From contig PEWQ01000053.1 of assembly GCA_002780065.1 (NCBI GenBank), forward strand, positions 1-12,353: DNA of 12,353 nucleotides, read 5' to 3'. The notes beneath the pieces are model-generated. The model saw nothing but the letters and a program-made list of their open reading frames with translations. It was not told the origin of the DNA and did not search any database. This stretch comes from Candidatus Hydrogenedentes bacterium CG07_land_8_20_14_0_80_42_17. GTDB lineage: Bacteria > UBA8481. The position numbers and the translations under genes were made by a program. This document shows positions 1,570 through 12,353 of this stretch, piece by piece; position 1 is the stretch's first letter; each line of letters opens with the position of its first letter.

Positions 1570-2593
1570 TTCGTTCCTCCAACATCTTTAAAAAATCATC
1601 CTTTATGGCATGAGGAATCCTTGCCGAACCTGCTCTCTCATGCCCAGTTCCGTCTCCTGCTCCAAGCGCATCGGCAATGCCTGCGAGCACTTTTCCGATA
1701 TGCACGTTGCCGCTCCGAAGTCGAACTGATAGGCGTGTAGTATCTTCTGAAATCTCCGAAATCACAACACATTTTTCCGGATATCTGTCTTGAAGCATGT
1801 TTGCGAGCGGTGAAGCCACTCTTATATCCCCGTATTCAACCTCGGCAAAAACCATCTTTCCGGCTATTTGTGCTCTGTCTTCAGCTTCTTCGATAAGCCT
1901 CTTAAAAATCATGCGTCGATCTTCAAAACATTTCTCATTCAAAAATTCGTCAGGCTCTGGAATATTCGAAAGATATTCAGCCATCTTCGTTGTCATCTTT
2001 TCTGCATACTGCGAAGCTAAAAATGTATCTTGCAATTCATTGAATCTTTTCAAATCACTTTTACAATTCTCGATCAAAAGTTCGGCAGGCTCTCTGCAGT
2101 AATCCATTATGCTTGCAAGCGCAGAAATCCAACCGGCATTAGCAGGCAAATCTTCAAATAATAGTTCATACATAACAAAGCCTATCGCAGGGTTTGGAGT
2201 CACAAAATAATTTCGAGGATTGAACATGCGTTTAATCGGAGTATTCATCGGATGAGGATGATGATCGATATTTATAAAGTTTTTATCGAATTGACAAAAA
2301 TCTTCGGTCATTCCCTGAGCCTCAACAAATATTCCTGAGCTATACTCTTTAAAAACTTTTTCAAAATGCAACGCGTCTTTCTTTCTGAATTCCGCCGAAG
2401 AAGCAAATCCAACATTTTTGCCGCTGTCCTTGAGATACCGCGCGAGAAGCGCCGCGCCGGTTATTCCGTCGCAATCGCCATGATGCGCAATAAGTATGGG
2501 GGAAGCCAAGCCGTCTATCTCAGCTTTGATTCTTTCTCCGGCTTGGAGGTACTCTTTAATTTCTCCGCTTTTATATGAGCCCAAAATCTTCAT
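1562..2593 (-). CDS. DHH-family phosphoesterase with C-terminal DHHA1-like domain
   Basis: A 343-residue protein of the DHH superfamily (RecJ/NrnA/archaeal RecJ-like nucleases). The N-terminal domain has motif I as AHHGDCDGITG (H37, H38, D40, D42), motif III as NIDHHPHP (D110-H111-H112) and a further acidic residue at D164 (SIMDYC). The C-terminal DHHA1-like domain ends in GTGHERAGSARIP (315-327), a version of the usual GGGH substrate-binding motif. Known members hydrolyse short oligonucleotides, cyclic dinucleotides or single-stranded nucleic acids with Mn2+. Where motif II normally supplies an Asp, the sequence reads FVEAQG with E91, which may tune metal binding. The start overlaps the GmhB-like gene by 23 bases, with GAAAAGAG about 6-10 bases upstream. 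The family is clear; the substrate is unknown, and its place in a sugar-nucleotide operon is unexplained. Confidence 0.88.
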   Translation of the reverse strand: MKILGSYKSGEIKEYLQAGERIKAEIDGLASPILIAHHGDCDGITGAALLARYLKDSGKNVGFASSAEFRKKDALHFEKVFKEYSSGIFVEAQGMTEDFCQFDKNFINIDHHPHPMNTPIKRMFNPRNYFVTPNPAIGFVMYELLFEDLPANAGWISALASIMDYCREPAELLIENCKSDLKRFNELQDTFLASQYAEKMTTKMAEYLSNIPEPDEFLNEKCFEDRRMIFKRLIEEAEDRAQIAGKMVFAEVEYGDIRVASPLANMLQDRYPEKCVVISEISEDTTRLSVRLRSGNVHIGKVLAGIADALGAGDGTGHERAGSARIPHAIKDDFLKMLEERIG

Positions 2594-3131
2594 TCAAAAC
2601 TCTTTTCACCGCGCTCAAAAGATCAGGCTCGATAAAATCCGGTTTAGCCGTCCATTCATCAGAAGGCTTCAGAGCCGCATTTCCTGTCTTAACAAGAATT
2701 GTTTTACAGCCCCCATTACGTCCCGCCTCGATATCGGAAATATTGTCGCCAATGAGATAAGTTTTCGAAGGATCGAATCCGTATTTTTTTGCGGCGGAGA
2801 ATATTAGTCCCGGCCGAGGTTTCCTGCAGTCGCAATTTTCGTCGACATTGTGCGTGCAGTAAAAGACATCTAGAATTTCTCCGCCCGCTTTTGCCGCATC
2901 ATCAAGCATTCGCTCTGTAATTTTCGACAAAGCTTCAGTCATCATAAGACCTTTTCCTACGCCTGCCTGATTCGAAATTACTATTACGCTGACGCCGGCA
3001 GAATGTAATTTTTTTAAAGCTAAAAGCGAACCGTCGATATATTCGATATCGTCTACGCAGTTCACGTATCGATTCTGCCTGTATTTGAATATGACTCCGT
3101 CTCTATCCAAAAAAATATATTTTTTCGTCAT
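2571..3131 (-). CDS. gmhB: D-glycero-D-manno-heptose 1,7-bisphosphate 7-phosphatase-like HAD phosphatase
   Basis: A 186-residue HAD-superfamily phosphatase of the GmhB/histidinol-phosphatase family. Visible are motif I FLDRDGV (nucleophile D9, acid/base D11; the usual Thr is Val), motif II ISNQAGVGKG (S53), the GmhB zinc loop with C92-x-H94 and C100-x-C102 followed by RKPRPG (K104), and motif IV GDNISDIEAG (D129, D133). In GDP-heptose synthesis this enzyme removes the 7-phosphate to give heptose 1-phosphate, the substrate of the guanylyltransferase encoded immediately upstream. I chose the ATG at 3131 because it forms an ATGA overlap with the HddC stop and gives the usual short N-terminus before DRDG. 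The alternative ATG at 3152 adds seven residues. The histidinol-phosphatase alternative is less likely in this context. Confidence 0.88.
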   Translation of the reverse strand: MTKKYIFLDRDGVIFKYRQNRYVNCVDDIEYIDGSLLALKKLHSAGVSVIVISNQAGVGKGLMMTEALSKITERMLDDAAKAGGEILDVFYCTHNVDENCDCRKPRPGLIFSAAKKYGFDPSKTYLIGDNISDIEAGRNGGCKTILVKTGNAALKPSDEWTAKPDFIEPDLLSAVKRVLNEDFGLI

Positions 3132-3874
3132 GATGCAATTATTCTTTTCCATTCTTTTCGAAAACGCTCCAATCTTTCAGGCGTTCCTATATCGTAAAAA
3201 TCTCCACTAATTTTGTATCCAAAAAGTTCTCTGCCCGATGCTTTCGGAAATATCTCCTGTTCCAGCGAAACGCGCTTATTCAAAGGAATCCGTTCGATAA
3301 AGCGTTTATTAAAGATATAAGCACCCGCATTTATGAACGTGAATCCACTCTGAAACTTCTTCTCGCTGAATCCTTCAATAGCTCCGTCAGAGTCAGCGCG
3401 GACGAAACCTCCTTCGTAATTCTGTTCTGCTGTACCTAGCGAAATAGTCGCAACCGATCCCTTTACAAGATGAAATTCGAGCATCTCCTCGTAATCAAAT
3501 AGTGCGATAGAATCTCCATTGAATACAAAAAAGTTTTCAGAGTTTATTAACTTCAATGCATTCCTCAACGCTCCGCCTGTTCCGAGCGGAATCGCTTCAT
3601 GCGAGAAGACAAATTCGAGCTCTTTTGCAAAATCAGAGCCTGCGTCTTTGCTCCAAAAATTTAACGCCTCTTCGAGACACTTTCCGTCATGCCCCGATGC
3701 AAAAATAAAACGGCGAAATCCTTTTTCAAAAAGATATTCAATCAAAATTACAAGAAATGGTTTTGAATAGACATCGACAATGACCTTCTGTTTTCCACCC
3801 GTAACAGAAAACAATCTCGTACCCAATCCTCCGCAAAGAACGACTGCATCAATATCAGAGAAATTTAAGCTCAT
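3128..3874 (-). CDS. hddC: Heptose 1-phosphate guanylyltransferase-like nucleotidyltransferase
   Basis: A 248-residue GT-A-fold sugar-nucleotidyltransferase. The N-terminal nucleotide-binding signature is VVLCGGLGTRLFSV (11-24), followed by the KPFL segment (38-41), LGTGGAL (97-103), FNGDS (118-122, metal-binding Asp), NAGAYIF (182-188) and the C-terminal YDIGTPERL (227-235). The length and the GGLGTRLxSV...KPFL arrangement fit D-glycero-alpha-D-manno-heptose 1-phosphate guanylyltransferase (HddC) better than glucose-1-phosphate thymidylyltransferase. The adjacent GmhB-like phosphatase supports this. The expected product is a GDP-heptose; another NDP-sugar remains possible. The gene starts 8 bases after the SDR stop with no clear SD, so it may depend on translational coupling, and its stop overlaps the proposed gmhB start. 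Confidence 0.82.
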   Translation of the reverse strand: MSLNFSDIDAVVLCGGLGTRLFSVTGGKQKVIVDVYSKPFLVILIEYLFEKGFRRFIFASGHDGKCLEEALNFWSKDAGSDFAKELEFVFSHEAIPLGTGGALRNALKLINSENFFVFNGDSIALFDYEEMLEFHLVKGSVATISLGTAEQNYEGGFVRADSDGAIEGFSEKKFQSGFTFINAGAYIFNKRFIERIPLNKRVSLEQEIFPKASGRELFGYKISGDFYDIGTPERLERFRKEWKRIIAS

Positions 3875-3882
3875 CGGTCTGG

Positions 3883-4821
3883 CTAAACGTTAGCATTAAA
3901 GTTTCTTCTCAAAACAGGAAAGAAAGCCGTCAGCTGGCGAATTCCACGTTCCAGAGACCACTCCGGTTTGAATCCAGTCGAAAGAAGTCTCTTATTCGAG
4001 ACAATGTAATCTCGCTTATCAACATCTTCACCGACCTGAGCCTCGAGCCAGGTAAAATTCGAAACAACTTTTTTTATCTCTGCGCACAATTCGAGCTTCG
4101 AAAGATTTGCATCCTCCAATCCGACATTGTAAGGCCGATTCTTCATTGATTCGAAATTATTGATTCCATGTAAAAACACTCTAGCTATATCTTCTATATG
4201 AATGAAGTTGCGTTTAAAATGCCCTTCAAAAACTACCACTGCGCGATCGTTCACTGCGCGCCAAGTAAAATCATTTACCAGAAGATCCAAACGCATTCGC
4301 GGAGAAACTCCGAACACAGTCGCAAACCTAAAAGTTATCGCGTTGCCACGTTCGAGCGCCGCCATTTCAGCTTCCATTTTGGTTATACCGTAAAGGCTGA
4401 TTGGCCGCAAAGGCGATTCTTCAGTGCAAAACTTGTCCTTCTCTCCTATGCCGTATCCGCTGTTAGTGACCGGAAGAATAATTCTCTGTTCTCTAGAAGT
4501 AATTCTGCAAATCATTCTCACCGCGTCGCGATTCGTCGTCACCGCGGCGGTCTTGTCTCTGTCGCAAAGAGGAGCTCCGACAAGCGCCGCCATAGGAATT
4601 ACTATGTCCGCAGAACGGGCAAGTTCCCTGACAAGCGCTTCATCTCTGCAATCTCCTCTAACAATTCTGAGATCTTCAAAGACCGCGCAGTCAAGAAGAC
4701 TTGTTTGATTGAAAAGAAAATTGTCAAGCACTGTGACTCTGTATCCCGACTCAAGCAATCTCCGAACTAAAACCGAACCTAGATAGCCGGCTCCGCCGGT
4801 AATAAATATATGTTCTTTCAT
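3883..4821 (-). CDS. NAD(P)-dependent extended-SDR sugar-nucleotide epimerase/dehydratase
   Basis: A 312-residue extended short-chain dehydrogenase. The Rossmann motif is TGGAGYLG (8-15), with D33 after beta-2 (VLDNF) suggesting NAD preference. The catalytic region has S121 in TNSGYG and the Y144-x3-K148 pair (LYGITK). RNFIHIEDIARVF (204-216) and YNVG (231-234) are typical of the NDP-sugar epimerase/dehydratase family. It probably acts on the sugar nucleotide made by neighbouring enzymes, as a C4 or other epimerase or as a 4,6-dehydratase. It lacks the TGITGQDGSYL N-terminus of classical GDP-mannose 4,6-dehydratase, so its reaction is not fixed. The gene starts 31 bases after the 3-dehydratase stop; an AGGTG lies about 12 bases upstream of the ATG, a weak SD. 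It is followed after 8 bases by the guanylyltransferase. Confidence 0.85.
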   Translation of the reverse strand: MKEHIFITGGAGYLGSVLVRRLLESGYRVTVLDNFLFNQTSLLDCAVFEDLRIVRGDCRDEALVRELARSADIVIPMAALVGAPLCDRDKTAAVTTNRDAVRMICRITSREQRIILPVTNSGYGIGEKDKFCTEESPLRPISLYGITKMEAEMAALERGNAITFRFATVFGVSPRMRLDLLVNDFTWRAVNDRAVVVFEGHFKRNFIHIEDIARVFLHGINNFESMKNRPYNVGLEDANLSKLELCAEIKKVVSNFTWLEAQVGEDVDKRDYIVSNKRLLSTGFKPEWSLERGIRQLTAFFPVLRRNFNANV

Positions 4822-4852
4822 AGCGTAATATTACACCTAGACATAAAATATT

Positions 4853-6034
4853 TCATCCTTTCTTCAGTCCCTCAATTACAGCATTACAGATATAGTCGAC
4901 ATCCTCCAGCTTCAGCGAAGGATGGTTCGGCAAAAAGAATCCGCAATGATGGATTCTGTCTGCCATCGGAAAACTTCCTATTCCATATCTCGATATCCAA
5001 AACGGATGCAAACCGAGATTACCCGCAGAAAAGATTCTGGTCTCCACTCCGTGCCGACCAAGCGATTCAACAATACTTTTTCGCTCATCAACATCTTTCG
5101 CCAACGCGCCGCAATGAATCGAGCAGACGCGACTGTCTTCAGGCGGAATTTGAAACTGTAATCTGCCTTCAAGATTCCTTAAATATCTTTTATGATTTTC
5201 TTCTCTGCGTTCAAGAATCCAATTCAGTTTTTTAATCTGGCCGATTCCAATCTTTGCATTCAAATCTGTAGTTCTTAAATTAAATCCTGGATAATAAAAA
5301 ACAAACGGCGAATGAAAATCATCAATATCGTACTTTGCCACCAACTTTGAATGAGTTTCTCGATCGAGGTCTTTGCTCCATCCATGACTGCGAAGCATCA
5401 AGAGCAAATCGTTCAGCTCCTTGTCATCCGTGGAGACCATCCCGCCTTCAATCGTCGACATCTGATGCCCGAAGTAAAAAGAGAAACTGGAAATATCTCC
5501 AAAGCTTCCGACATTTCGTTCCCGATATTTTGCTCCGATAGCCGCGCAAGCATCTTCTAATAGAATGAAGCCGTAACGTTCCTTCAGCGAAAGTATTTCA
5601 TCCATCTTCGCCGGCACTCCAAGCACCTGAACAAGAACTACAACAGAAGGATCGTGCTTCTTCAAAAGCATCTCTAAATAATCCGTATCAAGCGCAAACG
5701 TTTCCTTGTCAGCCTCGCACATTATCGGTTCGAATCCGAATTGAATAGCAGGCGCAATAGTGGTCACCCAGCCCACACTCGGCACAATGACCTTTTTATT
5801 CCGCAGTCTCCCTGATTCAAGAAGCGCGTAATACATCAACAAGTTTGCAGAGGACCCGGAGTTATTCGAGACGGAATAAGTTCGCCCGAGCCATTTGGAC
5901 CACTCCGCCTCAAATTTCTTTGTCATACTTCCCATAGTCAATCGAGGCGAAGTTTCCAGCCATGAGATCAACTCTTTGATATCTTTTTCGTCGATCGTGT
6001 CTTCGGCGAGATGGTAGCGAATAGGATTAGTCAT
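4853..6034 (-). CDS. ColD-like PLP-dependent sugar-nucleotide 3-dehydratase (DegT/DnrJ/EryC1 fold, His in place of catalytic Lys)
   Basis: A 393-residue DegT/DnrJ/EryC1/StrS-family protein. NSGSSANLL (58-66) binds the cofactor phosphate, LLEDACAAIGAKY (158-170) supplies the PLP-ring Asp (D161), and SFSFYFGHQMSTIEGGMV (183-200) is the active-site loop. Normal aminotransferases have the Schiff-base Lys in this loop; here the residue is H190. This is the hallmark of ColD (GDP-4-keto-6-deoxymannose 3-dehydratase) and of the E1/RfbH 3-dehydrases. The Cys cluster that binds [2Fe-2S] in E1 is absent: there is no Cys between 164 and 303, which favours the Fe-S-independent ColD type. The length matches ColD, about 390. 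The expected role is C3 deoxygenation of a GDP-4-keto-6-deoxy sugar. The start has GGAGA seven bases upstream. It is the first gene of the minus-strand sugar operon. Confidence 0.88.
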   Translation of the reverse strand: MTNPIRYHLAEDTIDEKDIKELISWLETSPRLTMGSMTKKFEAEWSKWLGRTYSVSNNSGSSANLLMYYALLESGRLRNKKVIVPSVGWVTTIAPAIQFGFEPIMCEADKETFALDTDYLEMLLKKHDPSVVVLVQVLGVPAKMDEILSLKERYGFILLEDACAAIGAKYRERNVGSFGDISSFSFYFGHQMSTIEGGMVSTDDKELNDLLLMLRSHGWSKDLDRETHSKLVAKYDIDDFHSPFVFYYPGFNLRTTDLNAKIGIGQIKKLNWILERREENHKRYLRNLEGRLQFQIPPEDSRVCSIHCGALAKDVDERKSIVESLGRHGVETRIFSAGNLGLHPFWISRYGIGSFPMADRIHHCGFFLPNHPSLKLEDVDYICNAVIEGLKKG

Positions 6035-6067
6035 TTATTTTCTCCACAAATTTATTCAAAGATACAG

Positions 6068-6096
6068 TTTAGCAAAAATAAAAAAAAATCGCTAAA
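6068..6096. repeat. Inverted repeat TTTAGC / GCTAAA around an A-rich core
   Basis: TTTAGC (6068-6073) and GCTAAA (6091-6096) flank a 17-base, nearly pure A tract. The right arm overlaps the -35 box of the flagellin promoter, and the whole lies between the divergent starts of the 3-dehydratase and the flagellin. It could be an operator or simply AT-rich promoter DNA. Confidence 0.3.
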
Positions 6097-6120
6097 GTAT
6101 TTAAGAAATTAATCCGATAA
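6093..6120 (+). promoter_or_regulatory. Sigma-28 (FliA/SigD-type) flagellar promoter
   Basis: TAAAGTAT (6093-6100) and TCCGATAA (6113-6120) are separated by 12 bases. This closely matches the flagellar class-III consensus TAAAGTTT-N11-GCCGATAA, with one mismatch in each box and one extra spacer base. It lies 89 bases upstream of the flagellin ATG and points toward it, so transcription should start near 6126-6128. Sigma-28 control of flagellin is established in many bacteria; the assignment here rests on motif and position. Confidence 0.8.
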
Positions 6121-6126
6121 ATGAAA

Positions 6127-6206
6127 TGGCGATTTTATGCGCCAGTGATGCAACTCAGGGAAGGAATGCACTCACAAAATATCTTATTCAAACCAAGGAG
6201 GGTTTG
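6127..6206 (+). promoter_or_regulatory. Structured flagellin 5' leader with candidate CsrA-binding hairpins
   Basis: Three adjacent hairpins can be drawn. The first is TGGCG/CGCCA (6127-6131 with 6140-6144), close to the predicted transcript start. The second is GTGATGCA (6145-6152) with TGCACTCAC (6167-6175, one bulged C); its loop carries ANGGA at 6157-6161 and 6161-6165. The third is CAAACC (6189-6194) with GGTTTG (6201-6206), a perfect 6-bp stem whose hexaloop AAGGAG (6195-6200) is also the SD and contains ANGGA. CsrA binds GGA in hairpin loops and represses translation when one site overlaps the SD, as on the Bacillus hag leader. Control by CsrA/FliW here is inference, but the structure is explicit in the sequence. 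Confidence 0.6.
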
Positions 6207-6208
6207 GC

Positions 6209-7033
6209 ATGAGGATTAGGGACAGTTTTACATCGATGGCGGTCACACGTCATTTTGATGATATCAGGTCTAAATCGGCGTACACACAGAGGCAAATGGG
6301 AGCAGGGGAAACATTAATTACGGCTAAAGACGATACTGCTAATTTCAGTATATCTCAGCGCCTGCGCGCTCAGATTGAGAGCAGTCAGCGCGCAGTGAAG
6401 AATGCTCAAGACGGAATCACTCTTATGCAGGAAGCTGATGGAGGGATCCAGTCAATCGTAGACAATCTGCAGAAGGCTCGAAGTTTGGCGATATATTCTG
6501 CAAGCGATGCCATTACTGATTCAGATAGAGCGACAGTCAATAAGGAATTTCAGATGTATATCGATGAGATCAACCGTCAATCACAGGCAACGAATTATAA
6601 CGGGAAACAGCTCATAGACGGCACCGGAGAGCAAAGTCTCAAGTTTCATGTTGGTGCAAACGAAGCCGACTCTATTTCGTTTAACCTGCCGACTGTCACA
6701 GCAGATTCGCTCGGAATAACCGGCACTTCTGTAGCAACGAGAGAAGACGCAGAAAATGCGCTTTCGATATTTGACACTGCGGTATTGAGATTAGGAGTTA
6801 CCAGATCTGACATAGGCGCATTCGTAAACAGGCTTGAAAATGCTCAAGGCTATACTCAAATACAAAATAACAACAATAGCGCCGCCAACTCGAAGATAAA
6901 AGATATCGATATAGCAGAAGGCTCAATTGCAATGGCAAAGGAGAAGATACAGTATGAAGCGGCTTCGGTTGCTTTATCAAAATCTTCGTCAGGTAATTCA
7001 GCCGCCGCGGCTCTGCTTCAATTGGGAATCTAA
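6209..7033 (+). CDS. fliC: Flagellin (short, D0/D1 domains only)
   Basis: A 274-residue bacterial flagellin. The N-terminal helical domain runs to about residue 150 and contains LRAQIESSQRAVKNAQDGI (52-70), LQKARSLAI (87-95) and NYNGKQLIDG (129-138), all recognisable D1 positions. The C-terminal helix includes IDIAEGSIAMAKEKIQYEA (233-251) and ends LLQLGI. The central part (about 150-180) is short, so the variable D2/D3 domains are essentially absent. The usual SSGLRINSAADDAAG segment is replaced by GAGETLITAKDDTAN, a divergent N-terminus. The protein would be exported by the flagellar type III system and polymerise into the filament. AAGGAGG at 6195-6201 lies 7 bases before the ATG inside a hairpin. 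It is preceded by a sigma-28 promoter, followed by a long inverted repeat, and flanked on both sides by sugar-nucleotide genes, which may indicate glycosylation. Confidence 0.92.
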   Translation: MRIRDSFTSMAVTRHFDDIRSKSAYTQRQMGAGETLITAKDDTANFSISQRLRAQIESSQRAVKNAQDGITLMQEADGGIQSIVDNLQKARSLAIYSASDAITDSDRATVNKEFQMYIDEINRQSQATNYNGKQLIDGTGEQSLKFHVGANEADSISFNLPTVTADSLGITGTSVATREDAENALSIFDTAVLRLGVTRSDIGAFVNRLENAQGYTQIQNNNNSAANSKIKDIDIAEGSIAMAKEKIQYEAASVALSKSSSGNSAAAALLQLGI

Positions 7034-7037
7034 AGTT

Positions 7038-7096
7038 AATTTATCAGGGGTGCGTGCTTTTCAAAAGGATGTGATAACCGCACCCCAAGATAAATT
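7038..7096 (+). terminator. Long inverted repeat after flagellin, probable terminator or 3'-stabilising hairpin
   Basis: AATTTATC (7038-7045) pairs with GATAAATT (7089-7096), and GGGGTGCG (7047-7054) with CGCACCCC (7079-7086). Together they make 16 bp in two blocks separated by a 1x2 internal loop, with a 24-base apical loop. It starts four bases after the flagellin stop. There is no clear U-tract, so intrinsic termination is uncertain; mRNA protection or a REP-like element are alternatives. Confidence 0.6.
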
Positions 7097-7113
7097 CATG
7101 ATGCGGGGGAAAT

Positions 7114-7142
7114 TTCATTCCGAACGGTTCCAATTTTATGAT
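7114..7142 (+). promoter_or_regulatory. Weak sigma-70-like promoter for the GDP-sugar synthase gene
   Basis: TTCATT (7114-7119) and TATGAT (7137-7142) are 17 bases apart. The -10 box is good and the -35 box is poor. A transcript would begin around 7149, only about five bases before the ATG at 7154, which fits the absence of an SD there. Confidence 0.3.
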
Positions 7143-7153
7143 ATTGTTTTATC

Positions 7154-8050
7154 ATGAAAATACTTGTCACAGGCGGAACAGGAATGCTGGGAAGAGCTCT
7201 CACCGAGTATCTTCCAGACGCAATATTTGTATCGAGCAGAGATGCTGATTTACGAAATATAAGCGAGACCGAATATCTCATAAATAAAATCGCGCCGCAG
7301 ACAGTAATTCATCTTGCCGCCGAAATCGGCGGAGTCAAAGCAAATATGGAAAAAAATCTGGAGTTTTTTGAATCGAATCTGCTCATGAATACCAATGTCA
7401 TAAGCTCTTCAGTAAAACATGGAGTCAAAAGATTTATCGGAGTTCTTTCCAGTTGCGCGTATTTCATTCCCGATGACCGGCCAGGCACCGAATCCGATCT
7501 GCATGTAGGTCTTCCCTATTTTGGAAATCTCGGATACGCATATTCGAAACGTGCTCTTGACATTCATGCGCAAATTGCTGCTGATAAAACTAAAATGCCT
7601 TACATGACTGTAACCCCTGTAACTATGTTTGGGCCGCACGATAACTTCAATTCTGAAACCGGGCATGTAGTCGCCGCGCTCATCGTCAAAGCTGTAAGCG
7701 CTGTAGAAAAAAACGGGACGATGTCTGTCTGGGGGAGCGGCAAGGCTATCAGGCAATTTGTTTATGTAAATGATATTGCAAAAATTCTCGCGCAACTTAT
7801 TGAAATAAATTTGACTGGAAATTTGATTATCGCGCCGGACATGGGAATCGAGATAAAAGCTCTGGCTGAGAGAATAGCGAATGCCGCGGGCTTCAAAGGA
7901 AGAATCGAATTTGATTCTGCAAAACCAGAAGGAGTCTCAAGAAAAGTTATTCAGAGTAAAAAGTTCAAAGAAATATTCGAAGATTTTCTTTTCACAGATA
8001 TAGACAAAGCATTGCAAGAGACAGTTGAGTGGTATAGAAAAAACAAGTAG
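7154..8050 (+). CDS. GDP-L-fucose synthase / GDP-L-colitose synthase family epimerase-reductase
   Basis: A 298-residue extended SDR. The Rossmann motif is TGGTGMLG (6-13), with HLAAEIGG (53-60). The catalytic centre is LSSCAYF (S100, C101) and Y128-x3-K132 (GYAYSK). FGPHDNFNSETGHVVAAL (159-176) matches the GDP-fucose synthase block, with H171 at the position of the epimerase acid/base His. The family epimerises C3/C5 or C5 and reduces the C4 keto group of a GDP-4-keto-deoxy sugar with NADPH. ColC, which completes GDP-colitose after ColD, belongs here. A ColD-like 3-dehydratase about 1.1 kb away makes a ColC-type role plausible; GDP-fucose or a heptose analogue are alternatives. No SD precedes the ATG, so translation may be near-leaderless. 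It lies downstream of flagellin but on an independent transcript if the inverted repeat terminates. Confidence 0.85.
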   Translation: MKILVTGGTGMLGRALTEYLPDAIFVSSRDADLRNISETEYLINKIAPQTVIHLAAEIGGVKANMEKNLEFFESNLLMNTNVISSSVKHGVKRFIGVLSSCAYFIPDDRPGTESDLHVGLPYFGNLGYAYSKRALDIHAQIAADKTKMPYMTVTPVTMFGPHDNFNSETGHVVAALIVKAVSAVEKNGTMSVWGSGKAIRQFVYVNDIAKILAQLIEINLTGNLIIAPDMGIEIKALAERIANAAGFKGRIEFDSAKPEGVSRKVIQSKKFKEIFEDFLFTDIDKALQETVEWYRKNK

Positions 8051-8130: not shown

Positions 8131-8916
8131 ATGGTAAAAATGTATGATCTTACTCAAAGGCTTTCCATTCACACTCCGCCGTGGCCGAGCTATATGCCTC
8201 TTCAGGTTCAGTACTTCAAGCGCATCGCTGGAGCTCACATGGGGCAAGGCGCAAACGGACAAATCATAAAGACATCGAATCATGTCGGCACTCATCTCGA
8301 TGGCGAGATTCACTTTGCGTCTAATGGCAGAGCAATCGGTGAATTATCTCTGGACGAGCTTGCCGGTCCAGGCGTTGTTGTAGACATTTCTGATTGCGTC
8401 AGTGATTATTCTCTATATTCGCCAAAGATGCTGATGGATCGAGCGGATATACGAAAGGGAGATATTCTCATCATAAACACCGGTTATCACCGATATGCAT
8501 GGGATCAGCCTCAAGCCGACGAAGTCAGGTACATGGTGAAGCATCCGGGACCTGATCCTGATTTTCATAAATGGGCGCTAAAGATGAAGTTCAAATGGAT
8601 CGGAGTCGATTGCGGTTCAGCGGATCATCCAATGAATACAATTCTTCGTTCATGGCATCCGAGGCTCTTCGCCGAGGCTGAAAACAAATTGAAAAAAGAT
8701 TACGGCAAGAGCTGGGACGAAATGTATCCGTACGAAGAATATTATCAAGTGATGCATCTCAAACTATTCCCGAAGGGACTCATTCACGCGGAAAATCTGG
8801 GTGGAGAAATTGAAAAGCTCAATAACAAAAGAACATGGGTCGGCTGTTTTGTATGGCGCGCAATCGAGCTTGAATCGTGCATTGCTAGAATTGTAGCAAT
8901 CGACTTTAAAAAGTAA
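8131..8916 (+). CDS. Cyclase-family (kynurenine formamidase-like) metal-dependent hydrolase
   Basis: A 261-residue protein of the cyclase superfamily (KynB, isatin hydrolase and relatives), which usually hydrolyse amide or lactam bonds using Mn2+ or Zn2+. The metal signature is SNHVGTHLDGEIHF (49-62), giving H51, H55, D57 and H61. Near the C-terminus GLIHAENLGGEIEKL (216-230) corresponds to the family's E-N-L active-site stretch, and a final ESCIARIVAI strand closes the fold. It is longer than KynB (about 210) because of a segment around residues 135-212 rich in aromatic and charged residues, so the substrate is probably not formylkynurenine. The start has AAAGGAG (8117-8123) seven bases upstream. 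It is the first gene of a five-gene operon and is followed after 28 bases by a nitrilase-like amidase. Confidence 0.87.
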   Translation: MVKMYDLTQRLSIHTPPWPSYMPLQVQYFKRIAGAHMGQGANGQIIKTSNHVGTHLDGEIHFASNGRAIGELSLDELAGPGVVVDISDCVSDYSLYSPKMLMDRADIRKGDILIINTGYHRYAWDQPQADEVRYMVKHPGPDPDFHKWALKMKFKWIGVDCGSADHPMNTILRSWHPRLFAEAENKLKKDYGKSWDEMYPYEEYYQVMHLKLFPKGLIHAENLGGEIEKLNNKRTWVGCFVWRAIELESCIARIVAIDFKK

Positions 8917-8944: not shown

Positions 8945-9808
8945 ATGGAGCGTTTCAAAATTGCATGCGCGCAATTTCCGATAATTCCAAATTCGATCGA
9001 TGCGAATACTGAAATGTGCATAAAATGGATTGGCAGAGCCTCTAAAGATCATAAAGCAAATCTAGTTGTTCTTCCGGAATCAGCCACAACAGGTTTCACT
9101 CCGAATATGCCGCTGGAAGCATTCTACAACATAATCGAGCCGTTAGATGGTTCTTCAGTCGAAAAAGTTTGTAAGGCCGCAAAAGATTTTGGAATCTATG
9201 TCATCTTTCCAATGTATGAAAAAGCGAAAAAGAAGAATATCATCTTCAATTCCGCAATTGTTATTTCAGATAAAGGCGAAGTGAAAGGTGTATATAGAAA
9301 GACTCATCTCTTTCCTACCGAGCGAATAAATTGCGGAGGCTGGAGCACTCCGGGCAAAGAGCTTCCAGTATTTGATTGCGGATTTGCCAAGATCGGAATA
9401 ACCATCTGTTACGAAGGAGATTTTCCGGAGCTGTCTCGAATTCTGGTTTTGAAAGGCGCAGAGGTCATAGCAAGACCTGCGGCGTTTTTAAGAAGTTTCG
9501 AGATATGGGAGCTTACAAACAAAGCTAGAGCATATGATAATCACGTTTATGTAGTTGCGACAAATAGTATAGGACCTGATGCAGGCGACAATTATTATTT
9601 TGGACATTCAATGATAGTCAATCCACTCGGTCAAAAAATTGCTCAAGCGCGCGGCACAAAAGAGATTGTCTCTGCATGGATAGAATCCAATCCTCACAAA
9701 TATGTGACCTACGGTTCAAAAATGGAAAGAAAATTTGATCATATTGAAGATCGAAACGTATCGATTTATGATATTCTTTTATTAAAGGAGGCAAAGAAAA
9801 GGAAGTAA
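8945..9808 (+). CDS. Carbon-nitrogen hydrolase (nitrilase superfamily amidase)
   Basis: A 287-residue nitrilase-superfamily enzyme with the complete Glu-Lys-Cys triad: E45 in LPESATTGF, K119 in YRKTHLF and C155 in ITICYEGDFPE. The second structural Glu region (PTERINCGG, E127) is also present. Members hydrolyse nitriles, aliphatic amides, carbamoyl amino acids or glutamine through a thioester at the Cys. The YEGDFPE motif points to an amidase or carbamoylase branch rather than a true nitrilase. GAGGAAG (8935-8941) precedes the ATG. Standing next to a cyclase-family hydrolase, it could perform the second of two C-N bond cleavages, for example ring opening then deamidation or decarbamoylation, but no substrate can be read from the sequence. 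Confidence 0.9.
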   Translation: MERFKIACAQFPIIPNSIDANTEMCIKWIGRASKDHKANLVVLPESATTGFTPNMPLEAFYNIIEPLDGSSVEKVCKAAKDFGIYVIFPMYEKAKKKNIIFNSAIVISDKGEVKGVYRKTHLFPTERINCGGWSTPGKELPVFDCGFAKIGITICYEGDFPELSRILVLKGAEVIARPAAFLRSFEIWELTNKARAYDNHVYVVATNSIGPDAGDNYYFGHSMIVNPLGQKIAQARGTKEIVSAWIESNPHKYVTYGSKMERKFDHIEDRNVSIYDILLLKEAKKRK

Positions 9809-9883: not shown

Positions 9884-10636
9884 ATGTCTGTAGATTTGGA
9901 GAAATTATTAAGGCCCGTAGACACGCCATTGCCGCCATATCCGCCAAAGGTAATCACACTTGCTGACGGTTCAAAAATGGTTGTAAGACAGATTGGGCGT
10001 GATGACATACCCGATCTTCTTCCTCATGTAGAAGCTCTAATACATCATGAACGCGATTATTACGATATTGTTTCGGTGAGAGTCTATGCAGAACTTCTCG
10101 CATATTATAGATATCGTGTAGTTGATGAATATGTGCTGATCGGTCAAATAAACGGTGAACTATCCGCCATAGTGAATGGAAGAATATACTCACCTGAAAT
10201 CGGAATGTCTTATCATACTCTCGGACTTAAACGAGGACTCAGGATTGGCGCTCACTGCTTTGCGGCAAAGATGGAATATCATATCGATGTATTAAAACAG
10301 GAAGAAGTATTAATCGTTGCCGAATCACCAATTGGATTCAGACGCTGGATGATCGAATATAATCTCGAAAAAAAATTCGAAATACCTCACGAACTCGGTG
10401 GTTCTCCATCGTACTCATTGACGCGTGAAATATTCAATCGTGCCCGCGGAAGCTTAATAGTAGGTTCTCGGCCTGTTCCGCAAGATCTGCTGGACGAGGC
10501 AATGGAAAAAATTCTACCGCCGTCCGATCCTCCAAAAGCACCTCCGGATTTTCTCGCAGCAACGCGGGCGAAATACGACTCGACAGGCACATCCATCATT
10601 GCGGATCCGAAGAGAAAGAAGGTGTCCCATGCGTGA
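9884..10636 (+). CDS. Unrecognised protein, weak GNAT acyltransferase resemblance
   Basis: A 250-residue soluble protein that I cannot assign firmly. A Pro-rich leader (VDTPLPPYPPK, 12-22) precedes a segment typical of GNAT N-termini, VVRQIGRDDIPDLLPHVEAL (33-52). A strand-like region (VDEYVLIGQINGELSAI, 79-95) and GLKRGLRIGAHCFAAK (113-128) sit where acetyl-CoA-binding motif A would be, but the Q/R-x-x-G-x-G/A P-loop is imperfect. AESPIGFRRWMIEYNLEKKF (145-164) resembles the last GNAT helix and strand. A C-terminal tail of about 70 residues, Pro- and Lys-rich, is not part of a GNAT fold. The start has AAAGGAAGG (9870-9878). The gene overlaps the thiolase gene by 8 bases, so the two are probably coupled and functionally linked. 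It could be an acyltransferase or a degenerate CoA-binding subunit. Confidence 0.7.
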   Translation: MSVDLEKLLRPVDTPLPPYPPKVITLADGSKMVVRQIGRDDIPDLLPHVEALIHHERDYYDIVSVRVYAELLAYYRYRVVDEYVLIGQINGELSAIVNGRIYSPEIGMSYHTLGLKRGLRIGAHCFAAKMEYHIDVLKQEEVLIVAESPIGFRRWMIEYNLEKKFEIPHELGGSPSYSLTREIFNRARGSLIVGSRPVPQDLLDEAMEKILPPSDPPKAPPDFLAATRAKYDSTGTSIIADPKRKKVSHA

Positions 10637-11804
10637 AGTCTATATTGTCGGAATTGGTATAACTTCATTCGGTCGTCTTGAATATCCTCTAGTCGAGATA
10701 GCTTCTTATCCATCAGTTGTGGCTCTTCAAGATGCCGGGCTCGATACTGTAGATCACCTCTTTGTCGCAAATATGGGTGGAGGTCGAATCAATCATCAGA
10801 CTGCTCTAAGTTCTGCAGTGCTCGATCATCTTTCACTCTGGCCTGCCGGATCAGAAACGATAGAGAACGGACCTGCTTCAGGTTCTTCGGCTGTTAAACT
10901 CGGATTTCAAGCAATTGCATCCGGCATGTGCGAAACCGTACTCGTTGCCGGTGCCGAGCGAATGAGCGAAGTTAATCAACTCGATGCAACTGATTTTGTT
11001 GCGACTTTAACTCATCCGATGGCCGAACAGATTTACGGCATAACTCTTCCTGCGCTCGCCGGAATGTTCACGAGACTTTACATGGAAAAATACGGCGTCA
11101 CGCGTCGGCATTTAGCTATGGTTGCAGTCAAGAATCATGGAAACGCAATGGATAATTTCTTTGCTCACGTTCACACCAGAGTGACGTTAGAAGGCATACT
11201 TGATGACCGTGATGCGGAAACAAACAATCCTGTAATTGCAGATCCGCTTCACTTTTTTGATATGTGTCCTGTTTCCGACGGAGGCGCCGCAGTGGTTCTT
11301 GCCTCAAAAGAAGTTGCAAAGAAGCTTGGCAAACCCATGATACGTATTGCAGGCGTAGGACAGGCAACAGATACTCATGCGGTACACGAAAGGCCTGATC
11401 CTACAGAATTGACGGCTGTAAGACTCGCCGCAAAAAGGGCTTTTGAGATGGCAAAGATTGAGCCCAAAGATGTAAATGTCGCAGAACTGCATGATGCATT
11501 TACGATTCTTGAAATTGCCGAGAGCGAAGAAGTCGGATTCTTCAAGAAAGGCGAAGGACACCTTGCACTTGAACGAGGTGAAACTCAATTAACAGGAAAA
11601 ATTCCGATCAATCCTTCAGGCGGATTGAAAGCCAAAGGACATCCTGTCGGTGCAACAGGTGTAGCACAAGTGCACGAAATTGTTTTGCAGCTCAGAGGTC
11701 AGGCTGAAAAGCGGCAAGTAAAAGATCCTAAGATAGGGTTTACATGCAACTTCGGCGGGTTCGGAAACAATGTTGTCTGTACGGTCATTAAGAAGGAGGA
11801 GTGA
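10629..11804 (+). CDS. Thiolase-fold protein (SCP-x/archaeal type) with Pro at the nucleophilic Cys position
   Basis: A 391-residue thiolase-superfamily protein. Where the acyl-accepting Cys lies in the usual NxCASG motif, the sequence reads ENGPASGSSAVKLG, with P82 (CCT at 10872-10874). The other catalytic elements are intact: H288 in AELHDAFT and H338 in GLKAKGHPVGATG. The C-terminal strand TCNFGGFGNNVVC carries C373 and C384, as in DUF35-linked thiolases. Normal members form or cleave beta-ketoacyl-CoA thioesters; without the Cys, acyl transfer by the standard route would fail. I chose the ATG at 10629 (AAGAAGG upstream) over a TTG at 10599, because MREVYIVGIG is the usual thiolase N-terminus. 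It overlaps the preceding gene by 8 bases and is followed after one base by its OB-fold partner, an established pairing for this subfamily. Confidence 0.88.
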   Translation: MREVYIVGIGITSFGRLEYPLVEIASYPSVVALQDAGLDTVDHLFVANMGGGRINHQTALSSAVLDHLSLWPAGSETIENGPASGSSAVKLGFQAIASGMCETVLVAGAERMSEVNQLDATDFVATLTHPMAEQIYGITLPALAGMFTRLYMEKYGVTRRHLAMVAVKNHGNAMDNFFAHVHTRVTLEGILDDRDAETNNPVIADPLHFFDMCPVSDGGAAVVLASKEVAKKLGKPMIRIAGVGQATDTHAVHERPDPTELTAVRLAAKRAFEMAKIEPKDVNVAELHDAFTILEIAESEEVGFFKKGEGHLALERGETQLTGKIPINPSGGLKAKGHPVGATGVAQVHEIVLQLRGQAEKRQVKDPKIGFTCNFGGFGNNVVCTVIKKEE

Positions 11805-11805
11805 T

Positions 11806-12165
11806 ATGATACGCGATATTTTAGGATATAAATGCAGAAAGTGCGGTTCTATCTCTTATCCAAATCATTACAGGTGTCCCAAATGTCATCACACAGAATG
11901 GAGAAAAATGGATGTCGAGTTTGATACATTACCTCTTCCTAAAAATGGAACACTCCTGACTTACACACATCTTTACGCTTTGCCTCCGGATTACGAACAA
12001 GTCTTTCTTACACTAGGCATAGTTGAGCTCGAGAACGGCAACAGATTGACAGGACAGTTGAAGATAGAAAAACCAAAAATCGGAATGAAGGTAAAAGGCA
12101 AAGTCGAGGTTGTTCGAAAAACAGATTACGATAAATATTACGGCATTGTCTTTTACGAATCATAG
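11806..12165 (+). CDS. Zinc-ribbon/OB-fold protein (DUF35 type), thiolase partner
   Basis: A 119-residue protein. The N-terminal rubredoxin-like zinc ribbon has C10-x2-C13 (YKCRKCG) and C24-x2-C27 (RCPKCH). An OB-fold follows (about 40-117), with the typical TYTHLYALPPDYEQVFLTLG and NRLTGQL strands. DUF35/OB-fold proteins bind the neighbouring thiolase or 3-ketoacyl-CoA synthase and hold the CoA moiety, as in archaeal thiolase/HMG-CoA synthase complexes and the BbsAB benzoylsuccinyl-CoA thiolase. The ATG at 11806 has AAGGAGGAG (11793-11801) upstream and lies one base after the thiolase stop, so the pair is surely co-translated. An upstream alternative start at 11770 would lie inside the thiolase gene and lacks family-like residues. 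It is the last gene of the operon. Confidence 0.9.
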   Translation: MIRDILGYKCRKCGSISYPNHYRCPKCHHTEWRKMDVEFDTLPLPKNGTLLTYTHLYALPPDYEQVFLTLGIVELENGNRLTGQLKIEKPKIGMKVKGKVEVVRKTDYDKYYGIVFYES

Positions 12166-12205: not shown

Positions 12206-12353
12206 CGTAGGGACAAGGCATTGCCTTGTCCTATTTGGCCAGGGCGGGTGCCCTATCGTAGGGACAAGGCATTGCCTTGTCCTATTTGGACAGGGCGGGT
12301 GCCTTGTCGTAGGGACAAGGCGGTGCCTTGTCCTATTTGGCCAGGGCGGTGCC
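12206..12353. repeat. 51-bp tandem repeat, three copies (last cut by the window edge), each a dimer of a palindromic half-unit
   Basis: Copies begin at 12206, 12257 and 12308 with CGTAGGGACAAGGC; the third is 46 bases to the window end. Each holds a near-perfect palindrome, GGACAAGGCA-T-TGCCTTGTCC (12211-12231, 12262-12282, and 12313-12333 with GGT in the centre). A second weaker hairpin follows (AGGGC/GCCCT in copy 1; GACAGGGC/GCCTTGTC with one G-T pair in copy 2). The two halves of a unit align with each other, so the 51-mer is a diverged dimer. Copy 3 also lacks one G in its GGGCGG stretch. No gene is visible here; the array probably continues beyond the window. Confidence 0.88.

Follow-up and report, generated by a model that had tools for sequence, protein, structure and literature searches.

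A conserved thiolase-fold protein with proline in place of the nucleophilic cysteine, its GNAT-fold and DUF35 partners, and a proposed role in oxidative pyrimidine breakdown

In Candidatus Hydrogenedentes bacterium CG07_land_8_20_14_0_80_42_17, a gene for a thiolase-like protein devoid of the nucleophilic cysteine of its family lies between genes encoding a GNAT-fold protein and a DUF35 protein, on a stretch of 12,353 nucleotides of contig PEWQ01000053.1 (the window, meaning here the whole stretch analysed). We regard this thiolase as a probably functional enzyme whose chemistry has changed, rather than as the product of a broken gene. As a tentative route, to which we grant somewhat less than an even chance, we propose that the thiolase-fold/DUF35 pair is functional and that, together with its GNAT-fold partner, it participates in the oxidative breakdown of a pyrimidine, most likely uracil. 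In a literature search covering open-licence papers, neither this trio nor the gene cluster in which it occurs was found to have been described before. The features of the window on which the analysis is based are the following:

8131..8916, + strand: cyclase-family metal-dependent hydrolase, candidate ring opener (Pfam PF04199)
8945..9808, + strand: nitrilase-superfamily amidase, candidate for amide or ureido hydrolysis (Pfam PF00795)
9884..10636, + strand: GNAT-fold protein, 250 aa, first gene of the trio (AlphaFold2, Foldseek, VIA)
10629..11804, + strand: Cys-free thiolase, 391 aa, member of the GPASG clade (Pfam PF00108/PF22691, NF004720, AlphaFold2, tree)
10863..10889, + strand: ENGPASGSS motif, residues 79-87 (sequence)
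11490..11501, + strand: HDAF motif, with His288 present and Ala290 where the family often has Cys (alignment)
11640..11642, + strand: His338 of the GHP motif, invariant (alignment)
11806..12165, + strand: DUF35 partner, zinc ribbon plus OB fold, 119 aa (Pfam PF12172, PF01796)

The thiolase gene runs from an ATG at 10629 (a mechanical list of open reading frames gives a TTG at 10599) to a stop codon at 11802-11804; its start is overlapped by the last 8 bases of the GNAT gene, and a single base separates it from the DUF35 gene downstream. The protein scores above the cut-offs of Pfam PF00108 and PF22691, corresponding to the thiolase N and C domains, and its best NCBIfam model is NF004720, at 408.5 bits against a cut-off of 420. 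The AlphaFold2 model (pLDDT 91.6) matches in a fold search the archaeal DUF35-associated thiolases 6et9, 7yvy and 4yzo, with TM values of 0.84-0.93. These Pfam domains, the fold similarity (TM up to 0.93) and the invariant GHP and HDxF motifs place the protein in the thiolase fold superfamily, among the SCP2-thiolase-like, DUF35-associated members. However, two hallmarks of a catalytic thiolase are missing. The NxCASG loop has lost its nucleophilic cysteine, residue 82 being Pro in all 22 members of the clade described below, and the second acid/base cysteine is found neither in the HDCF loop, where residue 290 is Ala (22/22), nor consistently in the CxG loop, where position 373 is variable. 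The proline had been noticed in a first-pass annotation of the DNA (ENGPASGSS, at 10860-10890), whose numbering of residues 82, H288, H338 and C373 proved correct. Codon 82, at the position of the nucleophilic Cys in most relatives, is indeed CCT (10872-10874), two base changes away from either Cys codon.

The same annotation reasoned that finding Cys in all close homologues would point to a local mutation or a pseudogene. A scan of 84,980 species genomes yielded 18 thiolase loci at 72-77% identity, labelled as Chlorobiaceae, Riflebacteria/Ozemobacter, Deltaproteobacteria, Bacteroidota, Ignavibacteriales, Verrucomicrobia, Kiritimatiellae, Lentisphaerae, Zixibacteriota, Terriglobia, Eisenbacteria and Actinomycetes, and three more homologues (54-62% identity) came from a diverse genome set, giving a total of 21 (54-77%). 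All 21 carry Pro at position 82, as does the window thiolase (22/22), so that the exchange extends across about a dozen phyla. The residue is encoded by all four Pro codons (CCT 6, CCC 7, CCG 8 and CCA 1), as expected from synonymous change under a fixed Pro82. The explanation by a sequencing error or a pseudogene, to which we assign a negligible probability, was rejected in view of the same residue in 22 sequences, the four codons, and the intact reading frame and neighbours; the proposal of a conserved, altered family thus held. In the phylogenetic tree the 22 sequences form a single clade (SH-aLRT 100), and its genes are always paired with GNAT-like and DUF35 genes, as the annotation had suggested might be the case. 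The sister group (support 97), which includes a paralogue from the same genome, has Ser at position 82, and more distant homologues mostly have Cys (ESACASG and similar). On this distribution, the loss of the cysteine seems to be older than the gain of the proline. The paralogue (L002:1486-2616, on contig C6) is a second Cys-free thiolase, with ESASSTG and HDAF sequences, and adjoins a DUF35 gene of its own with no GNAT gene.

Conservation was evaluated in an alignment of the 22 clade members and nine proteins from outside the clade. Both catalytic histidines, His288 and His338, are invariant in the 31 proteins, as anticipated from the single sequence. The replacement of the HDCF-loop Cys by Ala290 had escaped the first reading; by itself it is indecisive, because a few Cys82 homologues also lack the Cys in this loop. 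One could imagine that another cysteine takes over as nucleophile, and C373 had been put forward for this role, but it was rejected, being Cys in only 16 of the 22 clade members, with Leu, Val, Thr or Ile in the others. Another candidate is C213 (11265-11267), which is Cys throughout the clade (22/22) and nearly specific to it (1/9 outside, with Ser in the other 8/9); its position, however, precedes the SDG motif and falls outside the known catalytic loops, which makes a replacement nucleophile very improbable. Across the clade 113 of 391 positions are invariant, and N80, G81, P82, H250, F375, F378 and N380 are found only in its members (H250 being encoded at 11376-11378). Since several of these clade-only residues are in or near active-site motifs, remodelling is favoured over decay.

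Regarding the partners, the GNAT-fold protein gave no Pfam match in a profile search, and its assignment is based on the AlphaFold2 model (pLDDT 83.4), identified as a GNAT fold by both Foldseek and VIA (Z up to 13.7), in agreement with the first-pass description of the upstream gene as GNAT-like; a homologue at locus L108 passes Pfam Acetyltransf_1. The acetyl-CoA loop of GNAT proteins (Q/RxxGxG/A) reads RGLRIGA here and is partly conserved, with an invariant Arg, and many charged residues of the protein are also invariant. In the DUF35 protein, the zinc ligands C10, C13, C24 and C27 are invariant in 20 homologues. The arrangement with GNAT upstream and DUF35 downstream of the thiolase was found in 24 of 24 loci examined, namely the 22 P82 loci, in which alone residue 82 was scored, plus L123 and L125.

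In other genomes the trio is usually part of a larger cluster, with the typical order GNAT-thiolase-DUF35-AllH-AllF-AllG-cyclase-molybdenum hydroxylase, the last of these having three subunits. The neighbours belong to the Pfam AllH and AllG and the NCBIfam FdrA families, so that AllF, AllG and AllH occur together. AllG, of the oxamate-carbamoyltransferase type, is present in all 21 other trio genomes, even when the trio is located elsewhere, and the cyclase-family hydrolase in 20 of them. By comparison, AllG was found in 12 of 97 diverse control genomes, and the five controls with a GNAT gene all fall within those 12 (Fisher p 1.2e-5 for the GNAT-AllG co-occurrence, a value that ignores kinship). 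In two related genomes the genes of the small and the large molybdenum hydroxylase subunit are separated by an inserted gene of the Fic family, similar to protein adenylyltransferases (L085:5515-6564 and L087:6660-7709).

Clues to the substrate are provided by transport and salvage genes. A uracil-permease-like NCS2 gene directly follows the trio in L019/L122 (338.8 bits, versus 209 for xanthine permease), another is found in the L108 cluster, and at L079 (genome G094) a cytosine deaminase and a uridine phosphorylase lie beside the AllG-cyclase unit; pyrimidine-specific genes are thus found in the L122, L108 and L079 clusters. A purine pathway, acting on xanthine or urate, would agree with the permeases of two clusters, L106 and L112, which look xanthine-like, but the trio-adjacent permease and the salvage genes of L079 favour a pyrimidine instead. 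The most economical reading of these gene contents points to oxidative uracil (barbiturate) catabolism, and the case for uracil as the likely substrate of the clusters can be considered fairly strong. The AllF/AllG-cyclase unit of L079 (8478-13363) also holds an aldehyde ferredoxin oxidoreductase-like gene; no xanthine-dehydrogenase-type genes were found in the L079 stretch fetched, and another oxidoreductase may replace the molybdenum hydroxylase there.

Members of the trio are not always found together. GNAT-like genes, 38-41% identical to that of the window, are located in AllFGH-cyclase-molybdenum hydroxylase clusters at L106:13788-14459 and L108:11809-12360, in genomes with no thiolase match, indicating that the GNAT protein can function without the thiolase and DUF35. 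Genomes G014 and G051 combine a GNAT gene at 38-41% identity with the pathway genes but carry no thiolase, and in G001 and G019 the pathway genes occur without any of the three trio genes; the step performed by the trio would therefore be late or replaceable. The existence of GNAT without thiolase in G014 and G051, as well as the absence of both family cysteines, would also be understandable if the thiolase-DUF35 pair were a non-catalytic scaffold whose sole task is to bind CoA or to stabilise the GNAT enzyme. Against this, His288 and His338 are invariant, as are the GHP and HDAF loops and numerous residues of the pocket motifs, with 113 invariant positions in total, and we regard a purely structural role as unlikely.

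Comparison with characterised systems helps to place the trio. The nearest solved relatives, in sequence as in fold, are the archaeal acetoacetyl-CoA thiolase/DUF35/HMG-CoA synthase complex (6et9, 6esq) and the Pyrococcus furiosus thiolase 7yvy (35-40% identical, TM 0.86-0.93), both of which keep the nucleophilic Cys. Like the trio, the archaeal complex combines a thiolase, a DUF35 protein and a third, acyl-handling partner, but this third partner is HMG-CoA synthase and not a GNAT-fold protein. PhlABC, a Friedel-Crafts acylase (5m3k), also has three parts, the thiolase-type PhlC, the DUF35 protein PhlB and a third subunit, PhlA; in contrast to the window thiolase, PhlC requires Cys88 as acyl carrier (PMC6392133). 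The layout of the trio thus resembles both HMG-CoA synthase-thiolase-DUF35 and PhlABC, with GNAT replacing the synthase-like subunit and, by analogy, we infer that GNAT, thiolase and DUF35 form a complex. The nucleophile is also absent from the thiolase-like protein ST0096 of Sulfolobus tokodaii (4yzo, 37-38% identical by fold alignment; DNTSGSGGS), although this protein has Ser where Pro is found here and HDM instead of HDAF.

A Cys-free thiolase fold bound to DUF35 is also the architecture of the steroid aldolases Ltp2-ChsH2 (6ok1) and Sal-Shy (9myr), 24-25% identical to the window protein, which act on steroid thioesters. Both structures appear among the fold matches, and the trio might accordingly contain a retro-aldolase of this type, splitting a beta-hydroxy thioester with no need for a nucleophilic Cys. 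Their catalytic Tyr motif, YDHF in TcLtp2 and YDCY in CtSal (PMC12329534), is nevertheless missing here, being HDAF in 22/22: the Tyr is replaced by His, and the His/Cys by Ala. The P82 thiolase, despite its DUF35 partner, is therefore not classed with the steroid aldolases and, as genes for a beta-hydroxyacyl pathway were not found in the clusters either, we consider retro-aldol cleavage quite improbable.

The metabolic context formed by AllFGH, the cyclase and the molybdenum hydroxylase is visible only through other genomes. The genome containing the window carries CoxM-CoxS-CoxL-AllH on contig C196, and the cyclase and nitrilase genes lie beside the trio in the window. In most genomes with a trio a cyclase copy, 72-84% identical, lies beside AllG or the trio itself, and a nitrilase copy (59%) directly follows the cyclase in G001, a genome from the same order, which has the gene arrangement CoxMSL-AllH-AllF-AllG-cyclase-nitrilase in the absence of the trio. 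Among AllF, AllG and AllH, only AllH was recovered from the genome of the window: AllG was not found in this 87% complete assembly, and the search for FdrA recovered no more than a weak partial match (25%) that contains a stop and probably represents a succinyl-CoA synthetase. In the same genome, locus L135 (C69:507-4547) contains large and small molybdenum hydroxylase subunits adjoining a gene that resembles the cytosine deaminase of L079 (40% identity), and could possibly be another nucleobase catabolic unit. The contig ends, at positions 12206-12353 of the window, in 2.9 tandem copies of a 51-base repeat that contains a palindrome and has a related copy on contig C205; this repeat is the probable reason why the assembly stops just downstream of DUF35. 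The region 2571-8050 holds sugar-nucleotide genes, namely those for a phosphatase, a nucleotidyltransferase, two epimerase/dehydratases and a DegT aminotransferase around a flagellin gene, possibly serving the synthesis of a flagellin or surface glycan unrelated to the trio. A role of the trio itself in flagellin glycans or surface sugars was discarded, as the neighbours of homologous trios are AllFGH, cyclase and molybdenum hydroxylase genes and not genes of this kind.

In the route we propose, the molybdenum hydroxylase would oxidise uracil to barbiturate, the cyclase-family hydrolase would open the barbiturate ring to ureidomalonate, an AllFGH-type carbamoyltransferase, or an amidase, would take off the carbamoyl group, and the remaining three-carbon malonyl remnant would be passed to the trio. 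We know of no cyclase-family enzyme that acts as a barbiturase. An oxidative pyrimidine pathway through barbiturase and ureidomalonase has been described (PMC3758960), with barbiturate, ureidomalonate and a malonate-type C3 product as proposed here; its barbiturase is AtzD-like, whereas the candidates in the present clusters are a cyclase-family ring opener and an AllFGH-like carbamoyl step. The AllG, AllH and FdrA family members of the clusters are related to the E. coli oxamic transcarbamylase AllFGH (PMC11326118), although, unlike in E. coli, the substrate is probably not oxalurate, because the surrounding genes are those for cyclase-family and molybdenum hydroxylases and for pyrimidine salvage.

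As to the thiolase step, proline has no backbone NH, and the second oxyanion site of thiolases is formed by the GHP His and the His/Asn of the HDxF/NEAF loop. In PhlC, the acyl oxyanion hole consists of two backbone NH groups, one from the nucleophilic Cys and one from a Gly (PMC6392133). P82 should thus deprive the enzyme of its nucleophile and, at the same time, of one backbone NH of this hole, while the second site, made of the GHP and HDxF histidines, is intact, and His288 and His338 could still hold a thioester enolate. A Cys-free thiolase of this kind would carry out enolate-forming C-C cleavage with no acyl-enzyme, a mechanism that, by analogy with its relatives, we propose with moderate confidence. 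The most likely reaction would be a decarboxylation that turns a malonyl-CoA-type thioester into acetyl-CoA, and the GNAT subunit would move acyl groups onto or off CoA; the case for these two assignments is weak. Precedents diverge: the Cys-free thiolase-like TbSLP of T. brucei decarboxylates malonyl-CoA slowly (kcat 0.005 per s), while CtSal, also Cys-free, does not (PMC12329534). In the aldolase CtSal the counterpart of the HDCF-loop Cys is the proton donor, a role also proposed for this residue in SCP2 thiolases (PMC12329534). Among the options listed in the first-pass annotation, decarboxylation without a covalent acyl intermediate appears to fit best.

A variant of this scheme assumes an amide-to-thioester exchange, in which a GNAT working in reverse would make malonyl-CoA, plus ammonia or urea, from malonamate or ureidomalonate and CoA, and the thiolase would decarboxylate the malonyl-CoA at once, pulling the uphill step, so that the trio would constitute an energy-saving amidase-decarboxylase complex. 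This would account for GNAT, thiolase and DUF35 as one unit and also for GNAT without thiolase (L106, L108), and would give a role to the invariant charged residues of the GNAT and its modified CoA loop RGLRIGA; in related complexes DUF35 is a scaffold and has been proposed to bind acyl-CoA (PMC12329534, PMC6392133). The exchange is, however, energetically uphill unless tightly coupled. No GNAT is known to us to run in the amide-to-thioester direction, and we consider this variant unlikely. Equally speculative, and rather doubtful, is the broader version of the idea, that a new complex of GNAT, Cys-free thiolase and DUF35 turns malonamate or ureidomalonate into acetyl-CoA by decarboxylation-pulled exchange, within a hitherto undescribed, energy-conserving oxidative uracil pathway (cyclase-family ring opening, AllFGH-type carbamoyl-phosphate formation) that reached many phyla by horizontal transfer.

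Cys-free thiolase/DUF35 enzymes are already known in Ltp2 and Sal. If our proposal of a functional pair acting in pyrimidine breakdown is true, the P82 proteins would represent a second class of such enzymes besides the steroid aldolases, one in which Pro82 would make an acyl-enzyme mechanism very unlikely. The clusters would also provide gene candidates for the oxidative pyrimidine pathway, known biochemically since the 1950s and for which a review names only AtzD-like barbiturases (PMC3758960), and they suggest that AllFGH-type carbamoyl-phosphate chemistry would serve pyrimidines besides allantoin.
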